Origin: Achromobacter deleyi
GTDB lineage: Bacteria; Pseudomonadota; Gammaproteobacteria; Burkholderiales; Burkholderiaceae_B
Direction: 5' to 3'
DNA: 64,000 nucleotides
Assembly: GCF_902859705.1 (NCBI RefSeq)
Contig: NZ_CADIJO010000001.1
Coordinates: 496,001 to 560,000 of the forward strand
Under the pieces are notes generated by a model. That model was not told the origin of the DNA and made no database searches. It was given only the letters and a program-made list of their open reading frames with translations. The position numbers and the translations under genes were made by a program. The number at the start of each line of letters is the position of its first letter. Positions within the stretch are counted from its first letter, which is position 1. Shown in pieces: positions 1-9,033 of this stretch.

Positions 1-505
1 AGGCCTGCTCGGCGCCGCGCTGCGCAGCGGGGAAATCGCCGCGGTTGTAGTCGGTATAGGCGCGCGTGGCGATCGGAAAGCCGCGGCGGTAGGCCGCCGT
101 GGTGCCCGGCGCGCCGCCGGCTGCCGCGCCCGCCGGCTGGGCGGCGCGGGGCCGCAGGTTGGCGCGCGCCTGGCGCAGCCCGGGCGTGTCCAGCCCGCTC
201 TTGATCGCATCCGCCGCCGCCTTGTCGGCTTCTTGCAGCTTGCCTTGCTTTTGCAGTGAATAGATCAGCAGCAGGCGCAGCCGCTCGACGTCCGGGCGCA
301 GCGCGATGGCGGATTCCGCCTGTTGCTGCGCCAGCGCGTAATTGCCGGCGTCATAGCTCTTGTAGCCTTCGTCGGCGAACTGGTAGGCGGCGCCTTCCAG
401 CGGGGCCTCGGCGGCGCGGGGCGCGGATTGGGCCTGGGCCGGCCCGGCGTTCCCGGCGCAAGCCAGCGCGGCGGACAGCAAAAACGATCGGGTCAATGGC
501 TTCAT
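1..505 (-). CDS. nfrA: NfrA-like outer-membrane/TPR protein, N-terminal part (cut by window edge)
   Basis: Only the first ~168 residues are in the window. The protein starts with a clear Sec signal peptide (MKPLTRSFLLSAALACAGN..., Ala-rich cleavage region near AQA-QS). It continues into Tyr/Ala/Gln-rich TPR-like helices (for example FADEGYKSYDAGNYALAQQQ). Its start overlaps the stop of the upstream glycosyltransferase by 4 bp (ATGA), so the two are co-translated. NfrA-family proteins are outer-membrane export components paired with the inner-membrane glycosyltransferase NfrB. The NfrA identity rests mostly on this pairing and on the signal peptide plus TPR content. The C-terminal part needed to confirm it lies outside the window. 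Confidence 0.6.
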   Translation of the reverse strand, partial: MKPLTRSFLLSAALACAGNAGPAQAQSAPRAAEAPLEGAAYQFADEGYKSYDAGNYALAQQQAESAIALRPDVERLRLLLIYSLQKQGKLQEADKAAADAIKSGLDTPGLRQARANLRPRAAQPAGAAAGGAPGTTAAYRRGFPIATRAYTDYNRGDFPAAQRGAEQA

Positions 506-2214
506 GGAGTCGCGGGTTTTTCGTCGGTATGTGCCGGCGCGGCTGCCGCCGCCGTGGCGTCGGCCTGGCCGCCTTGCTGGAAATGAATGGCTTCTTTCAG
601 GGTGCCTTCGTCCAACCAGCCTTGTTCCATCAGGATCTCGCCCAGCGGCCGCTTGTCACGCGCCTGGATTTCCAGTGCGCGCGATAGTTTATCTTCGTCG
701 ATCGCCTGCCACGACAGCAACAGTTCTCCCAGGCGCTGGCGCTGCTGGGCCAATTGGTCGGTGGACGGGAAGTCGTGCATGGTCTTGTCCCAGGCCAGCC
801 GCTTGCCCGTGATCAGGTGGCCGATGAACAGCTTCCAGGCGCGCGCGGCGGCCATGGCATTGATGAAGTTGCCCACGATCATCCGCGGAATCGACAGCAG
901 TGCGTGTTCCCAGCCATACATGCGGCCCACGAAATAGGCCCGCTGCACCACCCGCAGCAGCAGCGCCACTGCGTTGATCCACATCAGCGTCACCAGCCAG
1001 CCGCCGGGCTTGAAGTACGACGGGTAATACACCTTCCACCAGCCGAACAGGTCCGCCAGGTAGAAAACGAAGAAGTTGGCCAGCAGCAGGTACGCCAGGA
1101 TCGCGATGAACGAGGTCACCAGGCCCTTGCGGTCGCGGAACAGCAGATACTTGGTGGCCAGCGATCCGGTCCAGCCGACCTGTTGCCACCCTTGCAAGCC
1201 GATGCCCAGCGTCCAGCGGGCCTTCTGCCGGTAGGCGGTGCGAAAGGTGTTGGGGAAGTATTCGCGCACGCCCAGCGGCATGTGCACGCTGGAAATCTTT
1301 TCCTTGCCCAGGCCGAACCAGGCGCGTCGGCGGGTCACGTATTCGACGCCGAACTTGCCGAAGATCTGGCGCATGCCGCGCTGGGCCAGCCGTGCGCCGA
1401 TGTCGTAGTCTTCCGTCAGCGTGTCGGTATTGAATGGCTGGTTATTGGTCTCGTTGGCCAGCTCGACCAGCGCGCGGCGCGAAAAGCAGGTGCCCACGCC
1501 GGCCGACGGCACCATCTTGGACAGGCTTTCGCGCACCACCAGGTCCTTGGTGTGCCATTCGGCGAATTCGTCCATGTAGGTGCCGGCCACCAGTTCGTAC
1601 CAGTGGCGTTCCAGCGAGGTCACCGGAAGCTGGATGAAGTCGATGCGCGGCAAGAGGTAGTTGTAATACTTGAGCTCCAGCGGGTGCAGCACGTCTTCGC
1701 TGTCGTGCAGGATCACGCCGGCAAACGGCACCGGCTGCTTGGCATCCTGCGCGAAGATCGCCTGCACGATCCAGTTCAGGCAGTCCGCCTTGCAGGTGGG
1801 GCCGTCGTGCGGCACTTCCACCCGGATCAACTGGCGGTAGCGCCGACGCATCCGCTCGACTTCCTTGATCGTGCGCTCGTCGTTCTGGTAGGTGCCGGCG
1901 AAGATCATGTAGTTCTTGTATTCCAGCGTCGACACCATGGTCTCGAGCATCGACGCGATCACGTCGTACTCGAGCCAGGCCGGCACCATGATCGCCAGCG
2001 GCTGTTCTTCCTTCTCGCGCAGCTGTGATGCCGCCAGCGGCGCAAAGCGCCGCTTGATGGTCAGCGAGCGCCAGGTCTCGCGCACCCAGTACCACGCGTC
2101 GATGAACAGATCATCCAGGCTCGAAAGCAGGATGATCACGCCAACGATGGCGGTCACGATCTCCAGGCCGCGGTAGTAATCGGCGATGAGATAGGGCCAG
2201 TAAAGCGAAGACAT
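502..2214 (-). CDS. nfrB: NfrB-like membrane glycosyltransferase with C-terminal MshEN (c-di-GMP-binding) domain
   Basis: This is a 570-residue processive GT2-type inner-membrane glycosyltransferase. An N-terminal TM helix (about residues 18-35) precedes the catalytic domain. That domain shows a DxD-like HDSED (D171-D174), a TEDYD acceptor-site motif (about 267) and QKARW (330-334), the Q-x-x-R-W signature of processive synthases. Several TM helices follow between about 360 and 450. The C-terminus carries two tandem MshEN motifs, RLGELLL...LEIQ (494-517) and RPLGEILMEQG...HFQQ (522-547), the fold that binds c-di-GMP in MshE and NfrB. It lies 18 bp downstream of the bcsB-like gene and overlaps nfrA. 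Inference: c-di-GMP-activated synthesis of a secreted glycan, probably using ManNAc made by the adjacent WecB. Confidence 0.85.
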   Translation of the reverse strand: MSSLYWPYLIADYYRGLEIVTAIVGVIILLSSLDDLFIDAWYWVRETWRSLTIKRRFAPLAASQLREKEEQPLAIMVPAWLEYDVIASMLETMVSTLEYKNYMIFAGTYQNDERTIKEVERMRRRYRQLIRVEVPHDGPTCKADCLNWIVQAIFAQDAKQPVPFAGVILHDSEDVLHPLELKYYNYLLPRIDFIQLPVTSLERHWYELVAGTYMDEFAEWHTKDLVVRESLSKMVPSAGVGTCFSRRALVELANETNNQPFNTDTLTEDYDIGARLAQRGMRQIFGKFGVEYVTRRRAWFGLGKEKISSVHMPLGVREYFPNTFRTAYRQKARWTLGIGLQGWQQVGWTGSLATKYLLFRDRKGLVTSFIAILAYLLLANFFVFYLADLFGWWKVYYPSYFKPGGWLVTLMWINAVALLLRVVQRAYFVGRMYGWEHALLSIPRMIVGNFINAMAAARAWKLFIGHLITGKRLAWDKTMHDFPSTDQLAQQRQRLGELLLSWQAIDEDKLSRALEIQARDKRPLGEILMEQGWLDEGTLKEAIHFQQGGQADATAAAAAPAHTDEKPATP

Positions 2215-2232
2215 GGGCTGGCGCGTCCTGGA

Positions 2233-4446
2233 TTACTTGCTGTCCTTGTTCCTTCTGCGGCTGGCGCGCATCGCGAAGATCAGGATCAGCAGCAATACCA
2301 GCAGGCTGATGCTGATCGCCGGCACGCTCCAGGAAATGTAGCGGCGCCATTCGAAGAACGCGCTTTCACCGGCGCCGGGCGGATGGCTGGCATCCGGGTT
2401 GGCGCTGTCGATCCAGGCCACCGGGCCCGCCGCGCCGATGATCGCCACGTTGCCGCGGTTCAGCACGAACGGCGCGTCCAGCATGCCGGCGCGCTGGCCC
2501 AGGGTGTGCCACAGCACGCCGTCCTGGCCGCTGGCGCTGATGACCTCGGCCGTGCTCAGGTGATCCAGTCCGGAAATGTCCAGCCAGGTCGCGTTCTTGC
2601 CGTCCACCCGCAACTGCTTGCGGTCGGTGACCGTGACCATCGGCTTGGCGCCATCCACGGCCACTTCCATCGCCAGGAACGGGCGGGCGGGCTTGACCGT
2701 CTGGCCGCCGGCCGCCACGGTGAGTTCGGCGCGGGTGGTCGACACGCCGCTGGCCGAAGCAATGCCGATCAGGCGCTTGAGGTTGTCGGGCGCGTCAGCC
2801 AGGTAGCTGTCGGGCACGATCACCTGCGGGCTGCCGGCAAGCAGCGGCAACAGCCCCACGAAGGTGCCGTCCGGTTCGGCCCGGTCGGGCTTCACGTAGC
2901 TGGTCGGCAGCACGTTCACCGGGTAACCCTGCGGAATCTCGTTGCAATCGACCGACACCGGCTGGCGCTGGAAGGTCACGCGTACCGCGTTGGTGACGCC
3001 CAGCGCGTAGCCGGGCACGCGCGCCGTCAGGCGTTCGGGCTTGCCGTTGGCGTCCAGCTGTTTGGCCGCCAGCAGAATGCCGTTCCAGAACACCGACGCC
3101 ACCGGCCGCGTCGACGATGCGCCAGGCGCGGCCGACACGTCCATGACCAGTTCGCCGGGCATGCGGCCATCGGACGACACCGCGGCCAGCGGGAAGGTGG
3201 TGTTCCAGTCGCCGCTCGCGACGACGTTGAAGCTGTTGGGCGAGCCGCCCAGCGCCGTCAGGCGCAGGCCGCCGTCCTTGAAGGTTTCGGGCGGCATCGC
3301 GGCCTTGACCTGCACCTGGCGCGTGACCAGGATGCGGCGCCAGGCCGTGTCGAAGGCGCCCGCGCCCTGGGCGCCGGCATCCGCGGCGACGGCGATCACG
3401 GCCTGGCGGCCCATGGCGGCCAGACGGATTTCCTTGGATTGCAGGTCGGCCGCGGCCAGCGGCGCACGGCGCGCACGCCAGGTCTTGAAGGCCTCGGCCG
3501 CATCCGCATCGGAGGCAAACTGCGATTGCAGCGCGTCCAGCGCCTCGTTCAGCTTGGCGCGCAGCCCGGCATCGGCAATCACGACGTCGCCCGCCACGGC
3601 CGGCGCGCCCATGACCAGCAGCGCGCCGATCTCGGCGGCATTGGCCAGCTTGTGCTTTTCGTTGCCCGTCAGCGCGGCGAACGCGGGCACATGCGACAGG
3701 CCCTCGGGGGCCTGCAGGCCGCGCGTGTCGATCTCGTCGCCGACGGCCGGAAAGGCCCGCACCGCGACGCGCTTGCCCGCGCGCTCCAGCGCCACGCCGA
3801 TGCGCCAGGCGCTGTCGAAGGCCTGCTGGTCCAGCTTGGCGCCGGCCACGATCAGGGTCGGCTTGCCGGGCAGGGTGCCCCAGGCGTCATCCAGGTTGCC
3901 GATGGCCGAGGCGTCGTAGCGGTAGGTCAGCCGCGTCTGCGGCGAGATCGTCAGCGCGTTGGCGGTGGCGCGATTGCTTTCACAGTGGCGCAGCGCGATT
4001 TCCGATTGCCAGTCCACGCCTACCCGCAGGAAGCCGCTTTCGCGGCTGCGCGGATCCACCGCGAAACCGCGCGTCACCGTGCCGTCGCCGTCGGCGATGC
4101 GCTGGGCATTCAGCGGCACGCCATCGGCCCACAGCACCAGGCTGGTGCGGCCTGGCTCGCCCTTGGTGTACTTGGCGTCGAAATTCAGGGTGGCATCGGT
4201 GATCGGCACGCCGCGCGGCACCGGCACATAGAATTCCTGGCGCGCGTCGCTGTTGCTCAGTACCACCGGCTCGCCGATCCCCAGATCGGCCAGCGTGGTG
4301 TTGCGCGTCACCCAGTCGTCGCCTTGCAGTTGGCGCAGGGCGTCTCCGGCAGGGCTGGCCATCGCGCCCAGCGGCAGCAGCAGGCCGGCGGCCATCAGCG
4401 CGCGGCAAAGCGTCAGGGCGGCGGGAAAGGGAGTGGGCTTTGACAT
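2233..4446 (-). CDS. BcsB-like periplasmic/inner-membrane exopolysaccharide subunit
   Basis: The protein is 737 residues, with a signal peptide (LLLPLGAMA near residue 27), a long periplasmic region of carbohydrate-binding/flavodoxin-like character, and a single C-terminal TM helix (SISLLVLLLILIFAM) with a short basic tail. This is the architecture of BcsB, the membrane-anchored partner of cellulose synthase BcsA. Here it sits beside NfrB instead of BcsA, so a role as the periplasmic partner of a different synthase is inferred. The start at 4446 places the signal peptide at the N-terminus; an upstream in-frame ATG would add 32 Arg/Pro-rich residues ahead of it. Sequence similarity to BcsB looks distant. 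The cellulose substrate should not be assumed. Confidence 0.7.
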   Translation of the reverse strand: MSKPTPFPAALTLCRALMAAGLLLPLGAMASPAGDALRQLQGDDWVTRNTTLADLGIGEPVVLSNSDARQEFYVPVPRGVPITDATLNFDAKYTKGEPGRTSLVLWADGVPLNAQRIADGDGTVTRGFAVDPRSRESGFLRVGVDWQSEIALRHCESNRATANALTISPQTRLTYRYDASAIGNLDDAWGTLPGKPTLIVAGAKLDQQAFDSAWRIGVALERAGKRVAVRAFPAVGDEIDTRGLQAPEGLSHVPAFAALTGNEKHKLANAAEIGALLVMGAPAVAGDVVIADAGLRAKLNEALDALQSQFASDADAAEAFKTWRARRAPLAAADLQSKEIRLAAMGRQAVIAVAADAGAQGAGAFDTAWRRILVTRQVQVKAAMPPETFKDGGLRLTALGGSPNSFNVVASGDWNTTFPLAAVSSDGRMPGELVMDVSAAPGASSTRPVASVFWNGILLAAKQLDANGKPERLTARVPGYALGVTNAVRVTFQRQPVSVDCNEIPQGYPVNVLPTSYVKPDRAEPDGTFVGLLPLLAGSPQVIVPDSYLADAPDNLKRLIGIASASGVSTTRAELTVAAGGQTVKPARPFLAMEVAVDGAKPMVTVTDRKQLRVDGKNATWLDISGLDHLSTAEVISASGQDGVLWHTLGQRAGMLDAPFVLNRGNVAIIGAAGPVAWIDSANPDASHPPGAGESAFFEWRRYISWSVPAISISLLVLLLILIFAMRASRRRNKDSK

Positions 4447-4481
4447 GGGGGCTCCGGGCGGGGAATACGGGGCAGAAGGCA

Positions 4482-5642
4482 TCAGGCCGGCGTGCCGGCG
4501 TGGGATCCGTACGGATCGAATTCGGCAACGGGGCGGCCGCACAGCGCGTCGACGATGCGCTGGCTGGCGTGGCCGTCGCCATAGGGGTTGATGCGGCGCG
4601 AAAAAGAGGCGTGCAGGGCGGGGTCGTCCAGCAGCCGGTTGACCTCGGTGACGATGCGCTGCGTGTCGGTACCCACCAGGGCAACCGTGCCGGCCTGAAC
4701 GGCCTCGGGGCGCTCGGTGACTTCGCGCATCACCAGCACCGGCTTGCCCAGGTAGGGGGCCTCTTCCTGCACCCCGCCAGAATCGGTCAGGATGACGTGC
4801 GCGCGTTGCATGAACCAGACAAAATCCAAGTAATCCAGCGGATCGATCAGGTGCACGCGGTCCAGTCCGGCCAGGTCCGTCATGACCACATTGCGCACCT
4901 GCGGGTTCAGGTGCACGGGATAGACGATCTGCAGGTCTTCGCGGCGGGCCAGTTCGGCCAGCGCGGCACAGATGTTCTTGAAGCCGCCGCCGAAGCTCTC
5001 GCGGCGGTGGCCGGTCACCAGCATCAGCCGGCGCTTGGGGTCGAGCCAGTCATAGCGGGCCTGCAGTCCGCGCGCCAGCTCGCCATCGGGAGCCAGCTTG
5101 GCGCAGGTCATCGCCAGCGCATCAATGACCGTATTGCCCGTCACTGTGATGCGGCCGGCCAGGTTTTCGCGCAGCAGGTTGCCGCGCGATTCCGCGGTGG
5201 GCGCGAACAGCAGGTCGCCAATCGCGTCGACCACGCGGCGGTTCATTTCTTCGGGGAAGGGCATCGCCAGATTGCCGGTGCGCAGGCCCGCTTCGACGTG
5301 GCCGATCCGGATGCGGCGATGAAACGCGGCCAGCGCACACGCTGAAGCGGTGCTGGTGTCGCCATGCACCAGCACGTAATCCGGCTGTTCCTTTTCCAGC
5401 ACCTCGTCCACGCGGCCAATCAGGCGCGCGTACAGGCCGTTCAAGGTCTGGTTGGGCACCATGATGTCCAGGTCGTGCTGCGCATGCAGATCGAAAAGCG
5501 CCAGCACCTGGTCCAGCATCTGGCGATGCTGGCCGGTCACGCAGACCACACTTTCTATCGAGGGCTCGCGCTGCAGCGCGGTCACCAGGGGCGCCATCTT
5601 GATGGCTTCAGGACGCGTTCCGAATAAGGAAAGTATCTTCAT
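4482..5642 (-). CDS. wecB: UDP-N-acetylglucosamine 2-epimerase (non-hydrolysing)
   Basis: The 386-residue protein begins MKILSLFGTRPEAIKMAPL, the hallmark of WecB/MnaA epimerases. It also shows VHGDTSTASA, GHVEAGLRTGN, PFPEEMNRR, TGHRRESFGGG and LTDSGGVQEEAP, all family signatures. It interconverts UDP-GlcNAc and UDP-ManNAc in the cytoplasm. It is the first gene of the four-gene operon (35 bp before bcsB-like), so it probably supplies UDP-ManNAc to NfrB. E. coli phage N4 adsorption likewise needs WecB (NfrC) together with NfrA and NfrB. The start was moved to ATG 5642, because the upstream in-frame codon adds only six unconserved residues. Confidence 0.93.
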   Translation of the reverse strand: MKILSLFGTRPEAIKMAPLVTALQREPSIESVVCVTGQHRQMLDQVLALFDLHAQHDLDIMVPNQTLNGLYARLIGRVDEVLEKEQPDYVLVHGDTSTASACALAAFHRRIRIGHVEAGLRTGNLAMPFPEEMNRRVVDAIGDLLFAPTAESRGNLLRENLAGRITVTGNTVIDALAMTCAKLAPDGELARGLQARYDWLDPKRRLMLVTGHRRESFGGGFKNICAALAELARREDLQIVYPVHLNPQVRNVVMTDLAGLDRVHLIDPLDYLDFVWFMQRAHVILTDSGGVQEEAPYLGKPVLVMREVTERPEAVQAGTVALVGTDTQRIVTEVNRLLDDPALHASFSRRINPYGDGHASQRIVDALCGRPVAEFDPYGSHAGTPA

Positions 5643-6088: not shown

Positions 6089-6982
6089 ATGAGCGACAGC
6101 CACCAGCACGGCGAAATACGCGCACTGCCCGAATCCCGCCTGTGGATTGCATTCGGGCTCACCAGCACCTTCATGGTCGTAGAGGTCGTCGGCGGCCTGT
6201 GGACAGGCAGCCTGGCGCTCATCTCTGACGCCATGCACATGATGACCGACGCCATCGCCTTGCTGCTGGCCCTGATCGCAATCCGGGCGGGCCGCAAGGC
6301 GGCGGACCTGATGCGCACCTACGGCTACGCCCGCTTCGAGATCCTGGCTGCCGCCGTCAACGCATTGGTACTGCTGGGTGTGGCCTTCTACATCCTGTAC
6401 GAGGCGTATCGCCGTTTGGATGCACCTCCCGACATTCAATCGGGCGGCATGCTGGCCGTGGCGATCGCCGGGCTGGTGATCAACCTGGTGTCGATGCGTC
6501 TCCTGGCGGGCGCCAAGGATGAAAGCTTGAACGTGAAGGGGGCCTATCTGGAGGTCTGGGCCGACATGCTGGGCTCCGTGGCCGTCATTGCGGGCGCGGT
6601 CATCATCTGGCTGACGGGCTGGCGTTGGGTCGATTCCGCGCTGGCCGTGGCCATCGGTTTCATGGTCTTCCCGAGAACCTGGGTGCTGTTGCGCGAATGC
6701 ATCAATCTGCTGCTCGAAGGCGTGCCGCCCGGCATGAGCCTGAGCGCCGTGCGCGACACCATCGTTCAAACCCCGGGCGTGGCGGGCGTGCACGACATCC
6801 ACCTGTGGGCGATCACGCAGAAGCAGCCGCTTCTGACCGGGCACGTGGTGCTGCGCCAGGGGGCCGATGGCGAAAGTGTCCGGCTGGACATCGAGCAGCG
6901 CCTGCAGGAAGGCTTCGACCTGCACCACACCACGCTGCAGATGGAACGTACCGACCGTTCCGAGCAGGAACACATTCACTGA
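6089..6982 (+). CDS. Cation diffusion facilitator (Zn2+/Co2+/Cd2+ exporter, ZitB/CzcD type)
   Basis: This 297-residue CDF protein has six predicted TM helices and a short cytoplasmic C-terminal domain, and exports divalent metal by proton antiport. The metal site in TM2 reads DAMHMMTDA (HxxxD). In TM5 the matching motif is YLEVWADMLGS, so the first ligand position is Glu instead of the His seen in E. coli ZitB. The N-terminus (SDSHQHGE) and C-terminus (EQEHIH) are His-containing, as in other zinc exporters. No other metal-handling gene is adjacent. The gene converges on ssrA, with a shared hairpin terminator starting 12 bp past its stop. Confidence 0.88.
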   Translation: MSDSHQHGEIRALPESRLWIAFGLTSTFMVVEVVGGLWTGSLALISDAMHMMTDAIALLLALIAIRAGRKAADLMRTYGYARFEILAAAVNALVLLGVAFYILYEAYRRLDAPPDIQSGGMLAVAIAGLVINLVSMRLLAGAKDESLNVKGAYLEVWADMLGSVAVIAGAVIIWLTGWRWVDSALAVAIGFMVFPRTWVLLRECINLLLEGVPPGMSLSAVRDTIVQTPGVAGVHDIHLWAITQKQPLLTGHVVLRQGADGESVRLDIEQRLQEGFDLHHTTLQMERTDRSEQEHIH

Positions 6983-7523: not shown

Positions 7524-8702
7524 CTAGGCCACGTTGGCGCAAGCCGCCTTGCCGGCCGCGCGCGGGCGCGAGGCTGCCATCAGCAGAAACGCCAGGGCCA
7601 CCGACAGCGCCACGATCGCGGCGGCCGCCCAGCCCAGCGACGCCAGGCCGTACTGGTCGATCACGCGGCCGCCGACCACCGCGCCCAGGCCGATCCCGAT
7701 GTTGGCGCCCGAAATATTGAGCGATGCGGCAAAGGCGGGCGCTTCGGGGGCGGACTTCATCAGGCGCACGTGGCAGACGATGAACAGGGCCGCCTGGGCA
7801 ATGCCCCAGGTCGTCAGCGCCACGGCCAGCAGGCCATGTGACTGCATCACGGGGCCGACGAAGGCCAGGCCCGCGGCCATCAGCGCCGAAAACAGCGCGG
7901 TGGCGCCCAGCGGGCTGCGGTCGACCAGGCGGCCGCCCAGCGTGTTGCCGATCAGGCCCACCGCGCCAAACGCCATCATCGTCCAGCCAACGACCTGGCC
8001 ATTGAAGCCAGCCAGGCGTTCCAGCATGTCCGCCAGATAGGTGTAGGCCGTGAACATCCCGGTGAACACCAGCAGCGACAGCAGCACGTGGCCGACGACG
8101 ATCGGGTTGCGCAAGATGCGCAGCTGCGTGACCAGCTTGACGCTTTCAGCGCGAATGCGGGTGCTGGGGAAGGCCAGCAACAGCAGCAGCGCCTTGGCAA
8201 ATGCCACCACGGACAGCACCCAGAAGGCGGCGCGCCAGCCGAAGGCGTCCGAGATCAATACGCCAATGGGGATGCCGAACACCGTGGCCGCCACGATGCC
8301 GAACGCCACCATCGAGATGGCGCGGCCGGCGCGGGCCGGTCCCACGAGTTCCACGGCGGTGGCGCTGGCCAGCGACCAGAACACGGGCAGCGCCAGCGCG
8401 GGGACGAAGCGGGCGATCGCCATGACCCAGATATTGGGGGCCACTGCTGCCAGCGCGTTGGACAGGCCAAACAGCACCAGCACGCCGATGAACAGGCGCT
8501 TGCGTTCGATATTGGCCATCAATGCGGTCAGCAGCGGGCCGGTGGCCGCCACGGTAAAGGCGAACAGGGTGACCAGCAGGCCGGCCTGGGACACGGTGAC
8601 ACCCAGGTCGCGGGCCAGGCTGGGCAAGAGGCCGACGATCAGGAATTCCGTCGTCAGAATGGTGAAGCCGGCGGCTGAAAGTAACAGGATGGGCAAAAGC
8701 AT
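7524..8702 (-). CDS. Major facilitator superfamily efflux transporter (AraJ/sugar-efflux-like)
   Basis: This 392-residue, 12-TM MFS protein begins directly with TM1 (MLLPILLLSAAGFTILTTEF). The loop between TM2 and TM3 carries the short basic ANIERKRLF, the region of MFS motif A. AraJ/PbuE-like drug:proton antiporters share the 'TTEF.IVGLLP' beginning. The substrate cannot be told from the sequence. The start at 8702 was chosen because upstream in-frame sequence is Arg/Pro-rich and does not look like a membrane protein. The gene stands alone, with 331 bp of non-coding DNA upstream. Confidence 0.8.
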   Translation of the reverse strand: MLLPILLLSAAGFTILTTEFLIVGLLPSLARDLGVTVSQAGLLVTLFAFTVAATGPLLTALMANIERKRLFIGVLVLFGLSNALAAVAPNIWVMAIARFVPALALPVFWSLASATAVELVGPARAGRAISMVAFGIVAATVFGIPIGVLISDAFGWRAAFWVLSVVAFAKALLLLLAFPSTRIRAESVKLVTQLRILRNPIVVGHVLLSLLVFTGMFTAYTYLADMLERLAGFNGQVVGWTMMAFGAVGLIGNTLGGRLVDRSPLGATALFSALMAAGLAFVGPVMQSHGLLAVALTTWGIAQAALFIVCHVRLMKSAPEAPAFAASLNISGANIGIGLGAVVGGRVIDQYGLASLGWAAAAIVALSVALAFLLMAASRPRAAGKAACANVA

Positions 8703-9033
8703 AGGCAATTCCTGGTGCGCGCGATGCCGTCGGCAACGCGCGGATAGTGCGGGATGGGCGTTCAAAAAAGGTCTGGGTTGCGCACCGGTGACAGGTCGGT
8801 GCGCAATTGCACGAGGGCTGCAAGCCGTCGGTGCGTGGCGTGGATCTGCTGTGCGGGCGTTGCCGCACGGCGCCGGCATCTGCCGGGAAAGGCAATCGGG
8901 AAGCACCCGAATGCCGGTATGGACTCTACTTTAATTCAACAGCAATGGCGGATAAAGCCACGGTGCTCGGATAAATTGTTCGGTCAAATCAACTAATTCG
9001 ACCGAACCGTTGTCACGCCGCCAAGGCCGGCGG
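8703..9033. other. Intergenic region upstream of the MFS gene
   Basis: No gene is visible in these 331 bp between the 3' end of gph and the MFS start. About 8930-9005 is AT-rich and contains the inverted repeat listed separately. No convincing -35/-10 pair was found. Confidence 0.4.
8978..9007. promoter_or_regulatory. 8-bp inverted repeat, candidate operator (or gph terminator stem)
   Basis: GTTCGGTC (8978-8985) and GACCGAAC (9000-9007) are perfect reverse complements separated by 14 bp of AT-rich sequence. The site lies 26 bp past the gph stop and ~275 bp upstream of the MFS start. No U-tract follows the stem on the minus strand, so an operator is as plausible as a terminator. Confidence 0.35.

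Follow-up and report, generated by a model that had tools for sequence, protein, structure and literature searches.

The locus described here lies at the left edge of a 64,000-nucleotide window of Achromobacter deleyi (contig NZ_CADIJO010000001.1, positions 496,001 to 560,000; G000:C1:496001-560000 in our numbering) and comprises wecB, a gene for a BcsB-like protein, nfrB and the beginning of nfrA. The four genes were found on the minus strand in the order given by the original prediction, which had placed them in one tight operon, and the spacings calculated from the coordinates were 35 bp, 18 bp and then a 4-bp overlap. The operon was not limited to these genes, and seven further genes on the same strand followed outside the window with gaps of 4-32 bp or a 4-bp overlap by coordinates (Table 1). 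The extended locus was numbered L002, in which each position equals the window position plus 11000. Judged from sequence, the locus is probably an operon for synthesis and export of an Nfr-type exopolysaccharide, gated by cyclic di-GMP (c-di-GMP) and belonging to a clade that carries BcsB. That such a locus would also have an aminoacylation module built in is the reading we prefer, and we give it somewhat better than even chances.

The gene cut by the window edge had been read as nfrA, and this was borne out when the rest of it was taken from flanking genome DNA: L002:8764-11505 encodes an intact protein of 913 aa with tetratricopeptide repeats (TPR) and the outer-membrane domain NfrA_C (Pfam E 1.8e-27). 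Against the "phage receptor" model NF007302, which we take to be the model of Escherichia coli NfrA, it scored 20 bits (cutoff 1223). The wecB gene was the single match in its own genome at E 1e-10, and its product is the likely source of UDP-ManNAc. The single match fits the pattern described in passages of Junkermeier and Hengge (2021), in which wecB adjoins nfrB where no other wecB exists (PMC8669469). The proposal that a precursor enzyme, a c-di-GMP-type synthase, a periplasmic partner of BcsB fold and an outer-membrane pore are combined in a single operon was supported.

Table 1. Genes and features of the Nfr locus (window or L002 coordinates)
Feature	Position	Strand	Family or model match
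wecB, UDP-GlcNAc 2-epimerase, 386 aa	window 4482-5642	minus	Epimerase_2 E 7e-119; TIGR00236 wecB equivalog 473 bits, cutoff 210
BcsB-like periplasmic, membrane-anchored subunit, 737 aa	window 2233-4446	minus	Pfam BcsB E 9.7e-6; fold match
nfrB, processive GT2 glycan synthase with C-terminal short MshEN motif pair, 570 aa	window 502-2214	minus	NF012033 953.7 bits, cutoff 537
NfrB tandem 24-residue c-di-GMP motifs, residues 494-546	window 577-735	minus	NF053729 E 6.7e-15
nfrA, first 168 codons, cut by window edge	window 1-505	minus	Pfam NfrA_C, TPR on full protein
AlgX-like protein 1	L002:7730-8731	minus	AlgX family
AlgX-like protein 2	L002:6622-7725	minus	AlgX family
MBOAT	L002:5035-6615	minus	MBOAT family
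carrier protein	L002:4770-5009	minus	PP-binding
DltA-like ligase	L002:3274-4749	minus	AMP-binding
AlgF	L002:2591-3277	minus	AlgF family
acyl-CoA-dehydrogenase-like flavoenzyme	L002:1451-2581	minus	acyl-CoA dehydrogenase family
DUF4434 protein, YbcH homologue	L002:469-1431	convergent to operon	PF14488

Conservation was evaluated in 80 related NfrB loci, the best 80 of 575 confirmed, which represent one clade. The glycosyltransferase family 2 (GT2) residues D171, D174, E268, D269, Q330, R333 and W334 of NfrB were kept in all 80, and the NfrB proteins of the 14 Achromobacter loci were 87-96% identical to that of the window (next best 83%). The E. coli NfrB equivalog NF008411 gave 585.7 bits, below its cutoff of 1170. 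Two MshEN motifs had been proposed at the C-terminus, and this part of the claim stood: the curated model NF053729 (MshE-related c-di-GMP domain) matched residues 494-546 with 54.6 bits (cutoff 38), and the motif glycines G496 and G525, aligned with G491 and G519 of E. coli NfrB, were kept in 80/80 loci. The position of motif 1 where the consensus has its middle glycine is Gln both here and in E. coli NfrB. According to passages of PMC8669472, the exchanges G491L and G519S in E. coli NfrB abolish or reduce killing by phage N4, and according to those of PMC8669469 the C-terminal part of that protein binds c-di-GMP with a Kd of 1.0 uM. A full Pfam MshEN domain (PF05157) was not matched in this NfrB at E 0.1; PF05157 matches E. 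coli NfrB at 542-628, a region mostly absent from the 570-aa protein, which is thus limited to the short part with the tandem motifs. The tail beyond motif 2 was shorter than 40 aa in 42 of the 80 loci. These results suggested that c-di-GMP binding by NfrB is likely.

The 737-residue protein had been called BcsB-like, and this was upheld. The Pfam BcsB match was just above the cutoff (24.6 bits, cutoff 21), 29 of 40 relatives matched at E<=0.001, and a 40-row sequence profile found no PDB chain at E 1. In the AlphaFold model, with a mean predicted local distance difference test (pLDDT) score of 84 and helices at 9-23 and 698-736, Foldseek ranks 1-22 against the PDB were all BcsB chains (best E 1.4e-27, about 12% identity). 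The protein is thus predicted to fold as BcsB, strongly by its modelled fold and weakly by its sequence. BcsA of cellulose synthase carries PilZ. The present locus resembles BcsA-BcsB in that a predicted BcsB fold adjoins a GT2 synthase under predicted c-di-GMP control, and differs from it by the MshE-type motif pair in place of PilZ and by the low identity to BcsB chains. A profile search placed the BcsB-like gene beside nfrB in 79 of the 80 related loci (L095 without it), while wecB was found in 70 and nfrA in 77, with contig ends truncating some of the loci. It was also present in 10 further loci (L018-L022, L176, L178-L181), two of which repeat genomes of the 80-locus set (L018 and L031, L019 and L045 being taken as the same genomes). 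By contrast, it was missing from the fetched DNA of 10/10 E. coli-type loci (L023-L026, L170-L175; NfrB match E 9e-241 or lower) and of five more distant loci (L177, L182-L185). This pattern of presence and absence indicated two Nfr architectures, with and without BcsB. An accidental hybrid origin of the gene was ruled out by its presence in 79/80 loci. The view of the BcsB partner as an unusual hybrid between cellulose-type and Nfr-type secretion was therefore given up; it is the norm of this NfrB clade, and passages of a 2021 paper already report it for A. xylosoxidans (PMC8669472). The operon of L035 (A. marplatensis) is complete except that its bcsB match reads across an in-frame stop; an assembly error or a broken gene would explain this.

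The four-gene layout is neither new nor rare. In the passages of Sellner et al. (2021), nfrA, nfrB and wecB of A. xylosoxidans are clustered with homologues of BcsB and of periplasmic O-acetyltransferases (PMC8669472), as in our locus; these passages make no mention of a ligase, carrier, dehydrogenase or YbcH. Passages of Junkermeier and Hengge (2021) describe an alginate-type acetyltransferase cluster in Simplicispira (PMC8669469). Compared to the E. coli NfrB-NfrA-YbcH system with WecB (N4 glycan receptor, NGR), the GT2 motifs, the c-di-GMP motif pair with both glycines, the TPR/outer-membrane exporter, the DUF4434 protein and the WecB supply are shared. The E. coli system differs by having no BcsB-like gene and no acylation genes beside nfrB, by a longer NfrB (745 aa) and by the placement of wecB in the operon for enterobacterial common antigen, the last as stated in parts of PMC8669469 and PMC8669472. 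In the family survey, NfrB was detected in 12/121 genomes and a ligase match at E 1e-45 in 65/268 genomes, of either type and including a few NRPS-like (non-ribosomal peptide synthetase-like) matches.

What is new in the locus is a predicted acylation module, a Dlt-alginate hybrid that includes a flavoenzyme and a ligase whose amino-acid pocket has changed. The same gene order was found in other Achromobacter, Bordetella genomosp. 5, Pandoraea, Trinickia, Delftia, Diaphorobacter, Oxalicibacterium and Pseudomonas, where, in most loci outside the own genome, the DUF4434 gene falls beyond the fetched DNA; the module is also that of Pseudomonas putida L056. All 45/45 Nfr-linked MBOATs examined, the own one included, terminate in FLYFQF; the own MBOAT has His344 in WHGA and Tyr523 in FLYFQF, and both AlgX-like proteins contain DxH. 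In passages of PMC12148441, FXYXXF is described as an acyl-shuttle motif whose tyrosine carries the acyl group in PatA, and pathways with the motif fused to the MBOAT are said to lack a carrier; these carrier-free pathways evidently use acyl-CoA. The AlgX-type proteins, AlgF and the MBOAT with its C-terminal FXYXXF are thus like those of MBOAT-SGNH transfer in alginate AlgIJXF and PatA-PatB, whereas here ligase and carrier genes accompany the MBOAT, unlike the systems without carrier in those passages. From Dlt and Bordetella dra the locus shares the DltA-like ligase, the DltC-like carrier and the DltB-like MBOAT, and it differs from them in that no DltD was found (AlgX-type proteins instead), in the absence of a separate DltX (motif fused to the MBOAT), in the non-D-alanine pocket and in the extra dehydrogenase. 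Ligase, carrier and MBOAT occurred together in 37 of the 80 loci, two unrelated ligases being left out. The ligase matches of L034 and L045 (25%) and the dehydrogenase of L095 (33%) were unrelated paralogues and were excluded from the 37 and 21 loci counted for these genes. Among the Achromobacter loci, the module was present in 10/14 and missing in 4 (L031, L034, L037, L039), including A. xylosoxidans L037. From its gene content, the module looks like one for aminoacylation rather than acetylation.

The ligase pocket was read at nine positions chosen by alignment with DltA chains and by GrsA numbering. The code of the own ligase is DFFAVGSCS. Seven dra-type ligase rows read DLYVLCTVA or DLFVLCTVA, five Paraburkholderia Nfr rows DLYVLCTVA, and seven Acidovorax-type Nfr rows were slightly different (e.g. 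DVYVLCTVA) with Cys, Thr, Val and Ala retained; these 19 D-alanine-type rows represent 12 Nfr and 7 dra-type loci. The L069 ligase (43%) is missing from the pocket table, its match being short of the cutoffs. Between the own pocket and the D-alanine type, the class majority residues differed at 8/9 positions. Strictly class-specific columns (22/360) comprised 6/9 pocket positions versus 16/351 others (p 1.9e-6), and 5/6 versus 16/351 without the three class-defining positions (p 2.5e-6; p 1.6e-7 with equal thresholds), the latter test being added since the classes had first been drawn from the pocket code itself. As the rows are related, the p values serve as guides only. In the ligase tree, one branch (100/100) set apart the 27 DFF rows and a second one (100/99) the 12 Nfr D-alanine-type rows, the same groups as by pocket code, with a long-branch warning for L144/L092. 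The DFF..GSCS pocket was constant or had one substitution from Achromobacter to Pseudomonas, and such near-invariance argues against drift. The amino-group Asp (Asp178) was kept in 46/46 ligase rows, and DltA chains were the closest in the PDB when the pocket region was compared. Passages of PMC8972799 state that this Asp binds the amino group in DltA, that Leu, Met and Cys form the cavity for the methyl group of D-alanine in Bacillus cereus DltA, and that the Cys selects D- over L-alanine. The residues aligned with Leu, Met and Cys are Phe, Phe and Gly in the own ligase. L144 and L092 (a metagenome-assembled genome of Alcaligenaceae) carry identical ligases with a third pocket, DFFAYGGVS, which, from its code, may load yet another amino acid.

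These pocket data bear on D-alanylation as in Dlt and Bordetella dra, with pocket residues that have merely drifted, which we consider improbable. It is favoured by DltA being the best-scoring ligase family (324 bits) and by the identity of 54-55% between the own Nfr ligase and the dra-type ligases of L137-L139 and L143. However, the score lies under the DltA equivalog cutoff of 560, and the dra-type ligase, also below it, comes nearer (391); the D-alanine cavity is replaced in the own ligase, whereas dra-type ligases keep Leu and Cys with Met replaced by Tyr or Phe; and the new pocket is stable across genera. The own genome further has a dra-type locus on contig 6 (L137, G000:C6:168001-184000; ligase at 7552-9000, minus strand, D-alanine-type pocket) of plain Dlt design, with carrier, DltD, a DltX-like small protein ending in FQYQQF, an MBOAT without the motif, and the ligase. 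The presence of DltD there and the dra MBOATs without fused motif likewise speak against D-alanylation by the Nfr module. The label "dra-type" rests on gene set and pocket; the Bordetella dra locus is BP2987-BP2991 according to a paper citing it, and a scan for the DltX-like motif found it in 2/4 dra-type loci. Identity of the Nfr module with the Bordetella dra locus was ruled out, since the own genome has both. Modification of the Nfr glycan by dra was disfavoured, 6/9 ligase-bearing g36 genomes (taken as Bordetella) having no NfrB match.

The dehydrogenase followed the pocket class. It was found in 23/25 loci with the DFF..GSCS pocket, in 0/19 of the D-alanine type and in 0/2 with the third pocket (L144, and L092, which is cut by the stretch); the loci extend only 10 kb past nfrB, and the absence of the last genes may be due to this cut. 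The catalytic Glu, at the position characteristic of the long-chain type as in long-chain acyl-CoA dehydrogenase (LCAD), was located by alignment to PDB 8w0z, where Gln replaces Glu, and was kept in 23/23, L044 included. Because it shares one operon with the carrier, the enzyme may act on a carrier-bound group. A whole-genome search of 14 genomes (13 of the D-alanine type and L092) revealed only dehydrogenases of 34-61% identity; those with at least 44% lay on contigs other than the Nfr contig, or about 370 kb away in L055. In L140, a 36% dehydrogenase was observed in a dra-type stretch, just outside the cut. PltF/PltE-like enzymes convert proline to pyrrole carboxylate. This route was disfavoured here, as the RedW/PigA models were far below cutoff (205 bits for the RedW prolyl-carrier dehydrogenase model, cutoff 650) and the nearest PDB chain was LCAD.

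Several findings weigh against the aminoacylation reading. MBOAT with AlgX and AlgF but no counted ligase occurred in 7/80 loci, of which L050 may be truncated where its contig ends; machinery of this kind could therefore transfer acetyl groups. This bears on the alternative that the module only O-acetylates the glycan, a common acyl group being provided or modified by the ligase, the carrier and the dehydrogenase. It also agrees with MBOAT, AlgX and AlgF being alginate-acetylation families and with passages of both 2021 papers that label such clusters acetyltransferase-like (PMC8669469, PMC8669472). Acetyl-CoA, however, requires neither ligase nor carrier, both of these genes accompany the MBOAT here and in the 37 loci counted above, and the ligase has retained the residue, Asp, with which DltA binds the amino group; O-acetylation alone is therefore judged unlikely, though we rank it above the other alternatives. 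Besides the DltA score below cutoff, the full-length ligase had two-domain NRPS chains on top in the PDB, with DltA next. The nearest PDB chain of the dehydrogenase was human LCAD (372 bits), and an enzyme nearer to LCAD than to prolyl-carrier dehydrogenases may act on a plain acyl chain. Thus the ligase might load a fatty or branched acyl chain and the dehydrogenase make an enoyl ester; this is doubtful, as the ligase groups with amino-acid-activating enzymes (DltA, NRPS domains) and keeps Asp178. In L040 and L043, two of the three Pandoraea loci, the ligase is encoded but the dehydrogenase is not, and their genomes contain none above 35% identity, which would make the dehydrogenase an optional tailoring enzyme. 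In G265/L144 it is not in the locus, and a 60% match elsewhere is cut by a contig end. The link between pocket and dehydrogenase is, as far as the sequences indicate, that of one clade, a single origin kept rather than many.

The convergent DUF4434 gene was present in 34/80 loci within the fetched DNA. Its product and E. coli YbcH both match PF14488 (E 5e-60 and 1.5e-69) and share 29% identity over 201 columns (BLASTP E 7e-12). For the A. piechaudii DUF4434 protein, the model (pLDDT 83.5) best matched the putative alpha-L-fucosidase 4h41 (E 2.1e-13, template modelling (TM) score 0.72), and the further, looser matches (TM about 0.3-0.6) were many glycoside hydrolases and a few other barrels. 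The invariant acids in seven DUF4434 sequences include E147, E149, D216, E248 and E251. Although YbcH was suggested to be a scaffold in passages of PMC8669469, we infer from the model that the YbcH-type protein is probably a glycan hydrolase rather than a scaffold. The open-licence PMC literature searched names DUF4434 in no paper, and E. coli K-12 ybcH (L026:3092-3982) appears in its RefSeq record and in the available paper passages only as a putative scaffold or auxiliary protein. In L034, L037 and L039, nfrA and the DUF4434 protein were 53-55% identical to those of the window locus, whereas nfrB reached 87-89% and wecB (not found in L039), bcsB and nfrB together 79-89%, as if exporter and hydrolase had been swapped together; in L031, the values for nfrA and the DUF4434 protein were 78% and 80%. 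Loci without the module thus tend to show a joint change of exporter and hydrolase, consistent with a differently decorated glycan. Upstream of wecB, an open reading frame on the other strand (window 6089-6982) resembles a cation diffusion facilitator by eye.

Based on homology, WecB would make UDP-ManNAc, NfrB with its c-di-GMP motif pair would polymerise the sugar at the inner membrane, the BcsB-like protein would receive the chain in the periplasm, NfrA would export the glycan, and the convergent YbcH-type barrel protein would probably cut or trim it. For the module, we propose that the DltA-like ligase could activate an alpha-amino acid other than D-alanine and load it onto the small carrier protein, the flavoenzyme could desaturate the carrier-held aminoacyl group, the MBOAT could move the group across the membrane onto the Tyr in the FLYFQF motif at its own C-terminus, and AlgF together with both AlgX-like proteins could place it on the glycan. 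Such a scheme would combine Dlt-type activation (ligase and carrier) with alginate/PatA-type transfer (fused-motif MBOAT and AlgX/AlgF). Its product may then be a secreted polysaccharide esterified with an alpha,beta-dehydro amino acid, while the sister loci of Paraburkholderia and Acidovorax relatives, whose pocket is of the D-alanine type, would attach D-alanine to a similar glycan; this is put forward tentatively, at well under even chances. Aminoacylation of an Nfr glycan was found in no title or abstract opening among the papers listed from the open-licence PMC literature.

One Nfr glycan is a phage receptor in E. coli. A receptor role of Nfr was suggested in the passages of Sellner et al. 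(PMC8669472), but for phiAxp-3, the one Achromobacter N4-like phage considered, the use of lipopolysaccharide is reported in parts of PMC5862860. The YbcH finding would recast a protein proposed as a scaffold in passages of PMC8669469 as a candidate glycan hydrolase. If the aminoacyl module is true, it would be an exception to the rule given in passages of PMC12148441 that fused-motif MBOATs work without a carrier. Aminoacyl groups, if added by the module, would give the polymer charged esters, with possible effects on adhesion, on phage binding and on how sensitive the cells are to cationic peptides.

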